Part shown: positions 12,055-14,186 of the stretch, piece by piece
Layout of the letters: each line of letters begins with the position of its first letter
How positions within the stretch are numbered: position 1 is the first letter of the stretch
Virus record (IMG/VR): IMGVR_UViG_3300030116_001247
Span: 1-25,143 of that record
DNA length: 25,143 nt
Reading direction: 5' to 3' (one strand)
DNA from: a virus
The notes under the pieces: model-generated
What the model was told of the DNA's origin: nothing
Seen by the model: the letters and a program-made list of their open reading frames with translations, nothing else
Database searches by the model: none
Position numbers and translations under genes: made by a program

Positions 12055-12083
12055 TAAGCAGTTTTAAATCTTGCTCAGGATAT
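12055..12083 (-). repeat. Pseudoknot-like intergenic repeat, copy A
   Basis: On the minus strand this copy reads ATATC C TGAGCA A GATTT AAAAC TGCTTA. The second helix pairs TGAGCA with TGCTTA, with a G-U pair at its second position. The first helix is shorter here (ATC with GAT). It starts 4 bases after the stop at 12088. No ribozyme follows this copy. Confidence 0.75.
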
Positions 12084-12087
12084 TTTT

Positions 12088-12339
12088 TTAACTTTTTAGA
12101 TATGCTTTATCAGTCCACCCTTTACCAGAACGCACTCGCTCTGTTAGTTTACTATATAAATTCTCAGTTAAAGTTTCACTTAATAACACTAAATGTTTAG
12201 TATGAAAATTTTCATTATCTATGTCATTATTATATAGAGTGCTTATAAGTTCATGTTGCGTGATAATATCAAAAAGTATATTCCTTTCTTTTTCATCTGC
12301 ACATGTAATTTCTATTTTATATTCTTTTCTTTTTTTCAT
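12088..12339 (-). CDS. Hypothetical protein (83 residues)
   Basis: This basic protein (MKKRKEYKIEITCADEKERN, then ILFDIITQHE) has an N-terminal strand and helix pattern and ends with ERVRSGKGWTDKAYLKS. It is bracketed by repeat copies B (with hammerhead 2) upstream and A downstream. Cleavage by the ribozyme would leave this gene at the 5' end of a new mRNA with a 5' hydroxyl about 70 bases upstream. AGGA lies 10 bases before the ATG. No family is recognised. Confidence 0.65.
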   Translation of the reverse strand: MKKRKEYKIEITCADEKERNILFDIITQHELISTLYNNDIDNENFHTKHLVLLSETLTENLYSKLTERVRSGKGWTDKAYLKS

Positions 12340-12364: not shown

Positions 12365-12415
12365 TACTGTTTCTGCTTTTGCGTCTTCAGGTTAGATACA
12401 CATCTAACGACAGTA
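12365..12415 (-). ncRNA. Hammerhead ribozyme 2 (type III), candidate
   Basis: In minus-strand RNA, stem III pairs UACUGU (12415-12410) with ACAGUA (12370-12365). GUC ends at C17 (12409), the predicted cleavage site. Stem I is 7 perfect pairs, GUUAGAU with AUCUAAC, closed by a GUGU loop. Then follow core CUGAAGA (12390-12384), a short stem II (CGC-AAAA-GCA) and GAAA (12373-12370). All invariant core bases are present. The weak point is stem II: the first pair is C-A, leaving two good pairs. The element lies between the Gp88-like gene and the gene at 12339, directly after repeat B. Confidence 0.75.
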
Positions 12416-12443
12416 AGCAGTTTTAAATCGTGCTTAGGATTTA
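12414..12443 (-). repeat. Pseudoknot-like intergenic repeat, copy B
   Basis: On the minus strand this copy reads AAATC C TAAGCA C GATTT AAAAC TGCTTA. The second helix is TAAGCA with TGCTTA. Relative to copies C and D, both members of one pair have changed (G-C to A-U), a compensatory change. Its last two bases are shared with stem III of hammerhead 2. It lies 17 bases after the stop of the Gp88-like gene. Confidence 0.8.
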
Positions 12444-12459
12444 TTCTATTATCCATATT

Positions 12460-13119
12460 TTAAGACACTTGTAAAGCACTAATTAAATTATTTTCTTTCA
12501 GTACTTTTTTCATCCTCTGACCATGAGCAACATACGCCACTATTGGAACATCTTTATTCCAACAACTGCGACACGTTCCGCACTTGCCATCGTTCAAGTA
12601 TGCCTTGCAAATCTCCGCAACTGTAGGTGTATCATCATAAGGAATTATAGTTGATGTATTCACACCTTCTATAATTTCACCATTTACACCATCACTTGAG
12701 AGCCTTACAACAACATTATCAAGCTTGTTTAGTTCCTCAATAACTGTTCTAAACTTCTTAAATTTGTGCATTCTTGTCGGTATCCAGTGCCTTGTCCAAG
12801 GTGTAGCCTTGCAAACTTCTAGAATCTTTTCAGCTAGTCTCAGATCATACATATCGCCACTATCGAACCATCTAAAATAACGATCATTATCTAATTCAGC
12901 CACCATATCAGCAACCCATTCATCACGTTTCCAGTCTTCTTTGTTATGGATGCGTGGTGCTTTTACATTTGGAAAATTATAATTTCCTGTTGTTGCATAA
13001 CATCCCTTACATGCATCAACCAACTCACCATCTGAGCCTATCGATGCGGGGCAAGTATCTATTGCTTGAAGACTCCACGATCTACAAGGCATCTTGCCCG
13101 CTTTACTTAATTTAATCAT
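12460..13119 (-). CDS. Gp88-like phage protein with cysteine clusters
   Basis: The 219-residue protein starts at 13119, where GGGAG lies 8 bases upstream. Visible motifs are MPCRSWSLQAIDTCPASIGS, DACKGCYATTGNYNFPNVKA, YFRWFDSGDMYDLRLAEKIL, TPWTRHWIPTRMHKF and KCGTCRSCW. This pattern matches a phage and plasmid family I know as Gp88 (unknown function). The cysteine sets (CPAS, CKGCY, CGTCRSC) and the SGDM segment after a Trp-Phe strand recall Fe-S or radical-SAM-like barrels. This is inference, as no canonical CxxxCxxC is present. It is the main gene on the segment between the two hammerheads. Confidence 0.75.
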   Translation of the reverse strand: MIKLSKAGKMPCRSWSLQAIDTCPASIGSDGELVDACKGCYATTGNYNFPNVKAPRIHNKEDWKRDEWVADMVAELDNDRYFRWFDSGDMYDLRLAEKILEVCKATPWTRHWIPTRMHKFKKFRTVIEELNKLDNVVVRLSSDGVNGEIIEGVNTSTIIPYDDTPTVAEICKAYLNDGKCGTCRSCWNKDVPIVAYVAHGQRMKKVLKENNLISALQVS

Positions 13120-13121
13120 TT

Positions 13122-13334
13122 TTATAACTCCCATTCATAATTTAAATTGGTAAATCCAACCATAAAAATTCCGCAAGCAATAGCTAAATCTTTAAAATCT
13201 CTATCATAATTAAAATAAAATTTTAGATTATGAAATTGCAAGTATAAATCTATAGCGTAATTTTTAACAATAATCTGACAACCATATATTTTTTCATCTG
13301 GTGTCTGATCTGGTAATTTTGTTATTTTAATCAT
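13122..13334 (-). CDS. Hypothetical protein (70 residues)
   Basis: This is a small, strand-rich protein (YGCQIIVKNYAIDLYLQFHN) with an aromatic C-terminal half (DLAIACGIFMVGFTNLNYEW). GAGGAG from the end of the preceding micro-ORF serves as its ribosome site, so it is coupled to that 23-residue frame. It precedes the Gp88-like gene by 2 bases. No family is recognised. Confidence 0.65.
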   Translation of the reverse strand: MIKITKLPDQTPDEKIYGCQIIVKNYAIDLYLQFHNLKFYFNYDRDFKDLAIACGIFMVGFTNLNYEWEL

Positions 13335-13339
13335 CTTTG

Positions 13340-13411
13340 TTACTCCTCATAATTTGGCATTTCTGCATTTAAATAATAATTATCTACTATTTGATCTAAT
13401 GTATCAAACAT
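13340..13411 (-). CDS. Micro-ORF of 23 residues after hammerhead 1
   Basis: The frame is MFDTLDQIVDNYYLNAEMPN followed by YEE. It has a strong AGGAG site 8 bases before the ATG, 18 bases downstream of hammerhead 1. Its last two codons (GAGGAG) form the ribosome site of the next gene, 5 bases away. It may be a leader peptide that couples translation of the downstream pair to the ribozyme-processed 5' end. It is too short to assign a function, and reality rests on the ribosome site and position. Confidence 0.5.
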   Translation of the reverse strand: MFDTLDQIVDNYYLNAEMPNYEE

Positions 13412-13428: not shown

Positions 13429-13485
13429 TTCTGTTTCGCATGTCCGTTAAGACGCTCATCAGTATGGTTCATTCCATATACAGAA
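13429..13485 (-). ncRNA. Hammerhead ribozyme 1 (type III)
   Basis: In minus-strand RNA, stem III pairs UUCUGU (13485-13480) with ACAGAA (13434-13429). GUA ends at A17 (13479), the predicted cleavage site. Stem I is UAUGG with CCAUA around loop AAUGAA. The core CUGAUGA (13462-13456) follows. Stem II is GCGUC with GAC-AU-GC (5 pairs, 2-base bulge) around UUAACG, followed by GAAA (13437-13434). Every invariant core position (C3 U4 G5 A6, G8 A9, G12 A13 A14, A15.1-U16.1, H17) is satisfied. Both end loops could make the usual stem I to stem II contact. It lies between repeat C and the 23-residue frame. Confidence 0.9.
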
Positions 13486-13490
13486 TAATA

Positions 13491-13520
13491 TGAGCAGTTT
13501 TAAATCTTGCTCAGGATTTT
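13491..13520 (-). repeat. Pseudoknot-like intergenic repeat, copy C
   Basis: On the minus strand this copy reads AAATC C TGAGCA A GATTT AAAAC TGCTCA. Helix 1 is AAATC with GATTT (5 pairs). Helix 2 is TGAGCA with TGCTCA (6 pairs). The connecting loops of 1, 1 and 5 bases suit an H-type pseudoknot. Its first helix base is 4 bases past the stop at 13524. Hammerhead 1 starts 5 bases after it. Confidence 0.82.
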
Positions 13521-13523
13521 ATA

Positions 13524-13790
13524 TTAGCTAACTATTTTAAGTAACCTTCTAATTTGATTTTCATAAATTCTTAAAATTTCCTTACGTTCTCTCAATGTCA
13601 TTTTCTTTAGATCATGTAAATCTACAGAAGTATAGAAAAAAGCATTATCTAAATTTTCATCGTTCATTAAATCATCATCAGTTTCTAGTAATCCCGATTG
13701 TTGTTCTAACCATATCGAGATCATACTTTCCAGTGCGATATTTACGTATTGTTTCGCTGTAAGTTTCCCTTCACCTTCTCTAGTTATCAT
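13524..13790 (-). CDS. Hypothetical protein (88 residues)
   Basis: This mostly helical protein has an acidic middle (LLETDDDLMNDENLDNAFFY) and a basic C-terminal helix (RERKEILRIYENQIRRLLKI). It is bracketed by repeat copies D and C, each sitting in the short gap beside the gene. AGGAG lies about 10 bases before the ATG. No family is recognised. Confidence 0.65.
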   Translation of the reverse strand: MITREGEGKLTAKQYVNIALESMISIWLEQQSGLLETDDDLMNDENLDNAFFYTSVDLHDLKKMTLRERKEILRIYENQIRRLLKIVS

Positions 13791-13817: not shown

Positions 13818-13847
13818 TGAGCAGTTTTAAATCTTGCTCAGGATTTT
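13818..13847 (-). repeat. Pseudoknot-like intergenic repeat, copy D
   Basis: This copy is identical to copy C over the 30-base core. It begins 4 bases after the TAG stop at 13851. No hammerhead follows; the next gene's AGGAG site lies directly downstream. Confidence 0.82.
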
Positions 13848-13850
13848 ATA

Positions 13851-14186
13851 CTAACCTCTGATTCTTCCGTAGCCGTTGGACTGTTGGAAATTGTTGTAAA
13901 ATTGCCCTCGAATATCTTTCTTAATTTCATTTGAAAAACTGGATTTTAATTTCTCAACTTTTCTAAGAGATCGCCTCATCCTTCTAAGATCGTTAGGAGT
14001 AGCCCCGAATCTGTAGCAATCTTTTTGATGTTGGAAAACTCCGACAAGTAGCCACACGTTAGAACCATCTTTTCCGATCCCGTGCAAAACATAAAGATTC
14101 TTAAATTTATCTTTTGCTGTTTGCCCCTTCTGATACTTGCGGGCTTGTCCTTCTGTTTGAAGGTCTATACATTTCACGTATTGCAT
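13851..14186 (-). CDS. Basic hypothetical protein, first gene of the leftward arm (111 residues)
   Basis: This is the first gene downstream of the leftward promoter at 14738-14766, behind a leader of about 545 bases. It is strongly basic (RKYQKGQTAKDKFKNLYVLH, then RRMRRSLRKVEKLKSSF) with a small beta-hairpin core (NVWLLVGVFQHQKDCYRFG). The charge and first-gene position suggest an early nucleic-acid-binding or host-takeover factor, but no family is recognised. AGGAG lies upstream of the ATG. Confidence 0.7.
   Translation of the reverse strand: MQYVKCIDLQTEGQARKYQKGQTAKDKFKNLYVLHGIGKDGSNVWLLVGVFQHQKDCYRFGATPNDLRRMRRSLRKVEKLKSSFSNEIKKDIRGQFYNNFQQSNGYGRIRG

Follow-up and report, generated by a model that had tools for sequence, protein, structure and literature searches.

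The window, by which we mean the whole stretch of 25,143 nucleotides that was analysed, derives from a marine-type phage with hammerhead ribozymes (HHRs) between its genes. This much is shown by the sequence; that the ribozymes cut themselves is inferred. The phage setting given in the preliminary description holds, since the terminase is 66% identical to those of the Pelagibacter phages HTVC103P/104P and further phage genes are present (DNA polymerase, primase-helicase and major head protein). The features of the region are listed in Table 1. The gap containing HHR 1 is intergenic, lying between the end of the 88-aa ORF (13524) and the start of the 23-aa ORF (13411) with its good ribosome site, and the preliminary description had likewise placed the ribozyme in an intergenic gap. 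The 23-aa ORF is also found behind a hammerhead in contigs L007, L233 and L240, with M/V, Q/K and N/T changes, and this conserved frame of 23 codons is a possible micro-protein.

Table 1. Positions of the ribozymes, pseudoknots (PK) and neighbouring reading frames in the window
Feature	Position	Strand	Remarks
Pseudoknot 3	13818..13845	-	Between a 111-aa ORF (stop at 13851) and the 88-aa ORF; without ribozyme
88-aa ORF	13524..13790	-	5' of pseudoknot 1; relatives 72-100% identical
Pseudoknot 1	13491..13518	-	Between the 88-aa ORF and HHR 1; 3' edge 12 nt before the predicted cut
HHR 1, type III, triplet GUA	13429..13485	-	Supported by RF00008, a relatives-only model and covariation
23-aa ORF MFDTLDQIVDNYYLNAEMPNYEE	13340..13411	-	Directly 3' of HHR 1; ribosome site AGGAG 13422-13418
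Gene product 88 (GP88) family protein (PF17338)	12460..13134	-	5' of pseudoknot 2 and HHR 2
Pseudoknot 2	12414..12441	-	Behind the GP88-family gene, directly before HHR 2; 3' edge 5 nt before the predicted cut
HHR 2, variant core, triplet GUC	12365..12415	-	At least 90 distinct family members, stems paired
Pseudoknot 4	12055..12082	-	Behind an 83-aa ORF (stop at 12088); S1 with 3/4 pairs; without ribozyme

Read on the minus strand from 13485 to 13429, HHR 1 is UUCUGU-A-UAUGG(AAUGAA)CCAUA-CUGAUGA-GCGUCUUAACGGACAUGC-GAAA-CAGAA. Stem III pairs UUCUGU with ACAGAA (13485-13480/13434-13429), stem I has five pairs and a 6-nt loop (13478-13474/13467-13463), and CUGAUGA (13462-13456) is followed by stem II with a 2-nt AU bulge (13455-13438) and by GAAA (13437-13434). 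The core is complete (C3-A9, G12-A14, A15.1-U16.1 and H17), and the cut is predicted between A13479, which is H17, and U13478. The preliminary description had read these 57 bases as a type III hammerhead with the same stem III, a GUA triplet cleaved after 13479, a 5-pair stem I with a 6-base loop, CUGAUGA, a stem II with a 2-base bulge, GAAA and every invariant core base. All of these claims held, the cleavage site as a motif with a predicted cut.

Comparison of the window with Rfam at the gathering threshold gave no match. The covariance search with the Rfam type III model, which the preliminary description had proposed, was run permissively and RF00008 (Hammerhead_3) matched HHR 1 over the full model (1-54) with 34.2 bits (E 4.3e-6 over 181 bases), short of the gathering score of 48.5 bits. 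We regard that score as an annotation cut-off and not as a defining biological feature of hammerheads. A covariance model built from 15 relatives, with the window left out (R1), scored HHR 1 at 74.9 bits (E 5.6e-19) as the sole site in the window. A permissive type III descriptor had two matches in the real window and 14 in total across 300 dinucleotide shuffles. Because the descriptor also matches shuffled sequences, the motif of HHR 1 is by itself merely suggestive, and it is conservation and covariation that settle the matter. The minimum-energy fold is weak (z -1.4) and stem II is misfolded in it.

In contigs that share a relative of the GP88-family gene or of the 88-aa gene, the ribozyme again occupies gaps between genes of this region; its stems differ in sequence yet still pair, its core is intact, and reversed sequences gave no matches. 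A pattern fixing only part of the core and the loop found 58 stretches in IMG/VR, and 45 distinct ones among the loci examined; the invariance of the AAUNAA loop in this first family was imposed by that pattern. When 25 distinct sequences were aligned, 95.8% of the cells were paired and 7 pairs were altered on both sides, with paired changes in all three stems. The covariation score of the alignment was 0.359, whereas shuffles scored 0.132 and slid controls no more than 0.067. By sequence, covariance model and covariation in relatives HHR 1 is almost certainly a type III hammerhead, although its self-cleavage is inferred without biochemistry. The opposite reading, that HHR 1 is inactive and merely a relic or a product of chance, could appeal to the Rfam score below gathering and the modest folding energy. 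It is all but excluded by the intact core, by stems that covary and by the shared location of the ribozyme in phages that have diverged.

None of the 19 relative contigs that were scanned reaches the Rfam hammerhead gathering score, which makes the first family look under-annotated. Rfam at gathering gave nothing in 34 related contigs, and BLAST of HHR 1 against cultured phages resulted in three weak matches only. In contig L258 (1700-1780) a partial copy of the first half of the ribozyme (TTTCTGTCTCTGGAATTTT) lies directly before a complete hammerhead, suggesting a gain or loss via local duplication.

The preliminary description was also correct that a repeated structured element adjoins the ribozyme, but it did not draw out what this means. 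It missed that the element is a widespread pseudoknot forming one module with the ribozyme, that a second hammerhead is found at 12365-12415, and that some 200 distinct phage HHRs mostly share a layout.

The repeated element is an H-type pseudoknot present in four minus-strand copies, and a pattern search of the 27,063-base record found no copy beyond these four. It consists of S1 (AAUC/GAUU), a one-base L1 (C), S2 (UGAGCA/UGCUCA), a one-base L2 and L3 (UAAAAC). In pseudoknot 1, S1 is formed by 13518-13515/13506-13503, L1 is 13514 and S2 is formed by 13513-13508/13496-13491; S2 of pseudoknot 2 is UAAGCA/UGCUUA, a compensatory change relative to copy 1. At least 216 instances with 103 distinct cores were collected from all loci, compared to one in the reversed control. 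The consensus is NNUC-C-UGAGCA-N-GANN-n-AAAC-UGCUCA, a part of which is invariant only because the search patterns imposed it. S1 varies (AAUC/GAUU, AGUC/GACU, ACUC/GAGU, UGUC/GACA, CGUC/GACG, CCUC/GAGG and more) and so does S2 (UGAGCA/UGCUCA, UAAGCA/UGCUUA, UAGGCA/UGCCUA, UUGGUA/UACCAA and more).

As the rows had been selected for pairing, covariation was retested on only those pairs that the search patterns left free. For S1, 42 of 46 such pairs were paired (shuffle mean 28, maximum 36), and for S2 70 of 84 (shuffle mean 57, maximum 66). The element is thus two interleaved helices with compensatory changes in both. None of 4227 Rfam models covers it. A reading of the repeat as a DNA operator or promoter was rejected because S1 pairs with the S2 loop and covaries, and is also contradicted by the element being strand-locked behind stop codons with RNA genes directly 3' of it. 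A pseudoknot for readthrough or frameshifting would fit a position 4-8 nt after the stop, yet behind the 88-aa ORF the frame recloses inside the pseudoknot (UAA UAU AAA AUC CUG AGC AAG AUU UAA).

The pseudoknot is found in the cultured phages Cyanophage S-RIM4, Synechococcus phage S-EIVl, Paracoccus phages ParMal1 and ParKuw1 and Mycobacterium phage Labelle, and in the complete genomes of three gut Heliusvirales phages. A relaxed pattern gave only two matches in about 85,000 bacterial and archaeal species genomes, both in Patescibacteria-type MAGs, so it is essentially a phage element. Where enough upstream sequence was available, an open frame of at least 50 codons ended within 80 nt upstream in 189 of 212 pseudoknots. 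The distance from the stop codon to S1 was never less than 4 nt, and was 4-8 nt in 104 of the 189. In 55 instances a tRNA follows within 160 nt downstream (tRNA-Asp in 52), starting 3-13 nt behind the pseudoknot; the remaining ones are followed by a gene with its ribosome site, by a hammerhead or by a promoter-like region. In contigs L113, L125 and L158 and about 50 other loci, large and mostly environmental phage contigs, the pseudoknot follows the end of a gene and precedes a phage tRNA-Asp(GTC) gene.

Two further settings of the pseudoknot were observed. In the three gut Heliusvirales phages the DUF2800 RNA motif (RF02960) is directly 3' of it, and no hammerhead was found there. The RF02960 matches (L281:427-583, L282:427-583 and L288:327-484) begin at the edge of the pseudoknot, which may therefore belong to the motif, or accompany it, without having been recognised as such. 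On viral contig L195 (6520) it lies between genes that we take, from their translations, to be AhpD-like and guaB-like. This contig could be an example of unusual cargo or a mislabelled bacterial contig.

HHR 2, from 12415 to 12365, is UACUGUC-GUUAGAU(GUGU)AUCUAAC-CUGAAGA-C-GC(AAAA)GC-A-GAAACAGUA. It has the hammerhead core and a predicted cut after C12409, and Rfam gave no hammerhead match at the site. Position 10.1/11.1 is C.A, neither a Watson-Crick nor a wobble pair, and this mismatch next to the core might slow cleavage. We regard HHR 2 as a hammerhead-like variant, for which activity is at most inferred because there are no cleavage data.

Relatives of HHR 2 were collected with a pattern in which the AUGUGUAU loop, CUGANGA and GAAACAG were fixed and the rest was free, so the invariance of the loop was imposed by the search. 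The loci examined gave at least 90 distinct matches. Several properties not demanded by the pattern are nevertheless present: position 16.1 is U in 90/90, no member has G at H17, stem I is complete in 89/90 and stem III has at least four pairs in 88/90. Position 10.1/11.1 is U.U in 45 members, A.A in 5 and C.A in 1, and a regular pair in only 18/90, while about 21/90 (ends U..C or A..C) have an extra base before a regular stem II. The triplet follows the subtype, being GUC in 21/21 of the inserted type and mostly GUA in the mismatch type. Stems of the mismatch type are 100% paired and covary strongly. In the survey by Perreault et al. 2011 (PMC3088659), matches mispaired at 10.1-11.1 were dropped from the final alignments unless activity had been measured. 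This rule covers most of the second family and may explain why the AUGUGUAU family was not catalogued. It is possible that the family is uncatalogued altogether, and a description outside the open-access literature that was searched is not excluded.

The 4.0 Mb of loci contain 204 distinct hammerheads, compared to 4 in the reversed control. Most of these some 200 phage HHRs share the order stop codon, pseudoknot or stable hairpin, HHR, ribosome site and next gene, an arrangement seen again and again in uncultured phages. In the first family (43 distinct HHRs) the pseudoknot is directly upstream in 12 and a hairpin with z < -2 in 24 more; of the other 7, most seem to have one a little further upstream. 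In the second family the median z of the upstream folding is -2.9, compared to -0.3 at random sites. For the 192 HHRs analysed without a pseudoknot, the upstream median is z -3.6 with 72% below -2, whereas 1852 stop-codon regions without HHR in the same contigs have a median of -0.4 with 16% below -2 (p 5e-47). This and other p-values are too optimistic because the contigs are partly related and the collections fragmentary, but the contrast is large. In contig L396 four successive genes (ATPase-like, unknown, HNH-endonuclease-like and unknown) are each separated by an upstream structure and a hammerhead, with up to five HHRs. The hairpins before the hammerheads in L208, L212, L249 and L086:4148 share the loop C(C/U)AAUAA (GAGAGCGACCCAAUAAGUCGCUCUC, GGGAGCAGUCUAAUAAACUGCUUCCU), possibly a second recurrent 3'-end element.

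The structures are close to the cut. From the last paired base of hairpins with z < -2 the median distance is 8 nt and the minimum 5, and among 19 distinct pairs of pseudoknot and HHR it is 4-5 nt in 16, including HHR 2 with 5 nt, and 12 nt in 3, including HHR 1. Only 9 of 93 stable upstream hairpins have six or more U in the next 9 nt, and pseudoknot 1 is followed by UAUUAUUCU without a U-run of the intrinsic-terminator type. With U-runs this rare, most of the upstream hairpins are not intrinsic terminators.

The motifs, their conservation and covariation and the order of stop codon, structure, ribozyme, ribosome site and gene are shown. Their likely explanation is that the HHRs cut polycistronic phage RNA just behind exchangeable structures that protect 3' ends; the cleavage, the blocking of exonucleases and the effect on expression are all inferred. 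Situated in the leader 5' of a small phage gene, HHR 1 would cleave itself and so cut a polycistronic minus-strand transcript after A13479, as HHR 2 would after C12409. The 3' end of the upstream RNA would then fall a few nucleotides behind a compact fold, a pseudoknot here and often a plain stable hairpin in relatives, and the mRNA of the 88-aa ORF would gain a 3' end generated by HHR 1. RNase R, PNPase and exonucleases like them require a single-stranded 3' tail several nucleotides long. From its position only, the fold is inferred to block 3'-to-5' exonucleases, while the downstream RNA would begin with a 5'-OH and a structured leader. A single long transcript of the phage would thereby be divided into separate, end-protected mRNAs. 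The observed order, with 4 to 12 nt from structure to cut, is what is expected if the ribozyme sets a guarded upstream 3' end.

There are points against this explanation. The 12-nt tail left by HHR 1 is in principle long enough for some exonucleases, and half of the pseudoknots in the window (3 and 4) lack a ribozyme, which means that the element has to act alone or use other ends. In addition, the closest cultured relatives HTVC103P and HTVC115P (terminases about 66% identical to that of the window) lack both elements where scanned, with no convincing HHR and no pseudoknot in the stretches of HTVC103P and HTVC115P (first 50 kb) that were searched. Within the favoured explanation, the pseudoknot itself would be a general phage 3'-end element that is also used where 3' ends arise otherwise, for example beside tRNAs; cleavage there by RNase P would leave 3-13 nt of tail after the pseudoknot.

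A different view is that the HHR mainly serves the downstream mRNA and that the upstream structure is incidental: a 5'-OH with a structured leader would escape 5'-monophosphate-dependent RNase E, or the ribosome site would be freed. A ribosome site and start codon do follow the HHR in 64 of 85 cases. However, the structure is found far too often, and too near the cut, to be a by-product, and pseudoknots also follow stop codons where no hammerhead is present, so this view is unlikely. We consider it very unlikely that the pseudoknot binds a ligand or a protein and thereby switches the ribozyme or translation, as an aptazyme or riboswitch would. In favour of a switch are the loop bases and much of S2, conserved beyond what pairing needs (partly imposed by the search patterns), and the overlap of S2 with the outer part of ribozyme stem III in many pairs. 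Against it, the pseudoknot is also found before tRNAs, promoters and other RNAs that offer no common target for a switch. Moreover, unrelated hairpins take its place before the same hammerhead, and this exchange suggests a mechanical role and not a specific ligand sensor.

Less probable still is that successive HHRs excise the RNA between them and that an RtcB-like ligase joins the 5'-OH and 2',3'-cyclic phosphate ends into a circular mRNA. The window has two co-directional HHRs, with about 1.07 kb and three genes between their cuts (13478-12409), and L396 has up to five. But some contigs have only a single HHR, structures protecting a 3' end would serve no purpose, and Perreault et al. sought circles arising from tandem phage hammerheads without finding any (PMC3088659).

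Compared to known systems, HHR 1 resembles RF00008 in being open at stem III, in the core CUGANGA...GAAA, in the NUH triplet and in the full-length model match. Its family differs in the score below gathering, the conserved AAUNAA loop of stem I, the AU bulge in stem II and, within phage operons, the constant placement after a 3' structure. The phage and prophage HHRs of Perreault et al. 2011 (PMC3088659) are likewise intergenic, often several per phage, and flank single genes. Cutting into operon- or gene-length mRNAs was proposed there and cleavage was shown in several cases, but an upstream pseudoknot or hairpin is not described in the relevant sections. Neither the pseudoknot nor the pairing of structure and HHR was described in the open-access literature searched, most subscription papers being outside reach. 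Our additions are the structure, whose guarding role is inferred, the pseudoknot family and the variant core. The HDV-like theta ribozymes of gut phages (PMC10879173) are also self-cleaving phage ribozymes, but they have a different fold and are linked to tRNA-based recoding, and no hammerhead is mentioned in the text of that paper.

The role of phage hammerheads has been open since their discovery, and cutting into gene-length mRNAs has been suggested mainly from position. The short interval of 4-12 nt between a 3'-end structure and the cut points to a specific mechanism that can be tested. The pseudoknot, which is absent from Rfam, can be tested in the laboratory because cultured phages of Synechococcus, Paracoccus and Mycobacterium carry it. 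If the AUGUGUAU family is active, the range of sequences known to work in this much-studied ribozyme would widen. A bolder reading, which may as readily prove wrong as right, is that many phage lineages share a dedicated RNA-based 3'-end system. Its pseudoknot roadblock would be interchangeable with hairpins, and its cutter would be whichever is at hand: a hammerhead, including the family with a mismatch or insert at 10.1/11.1, RNase P at a tRNA, or termination.
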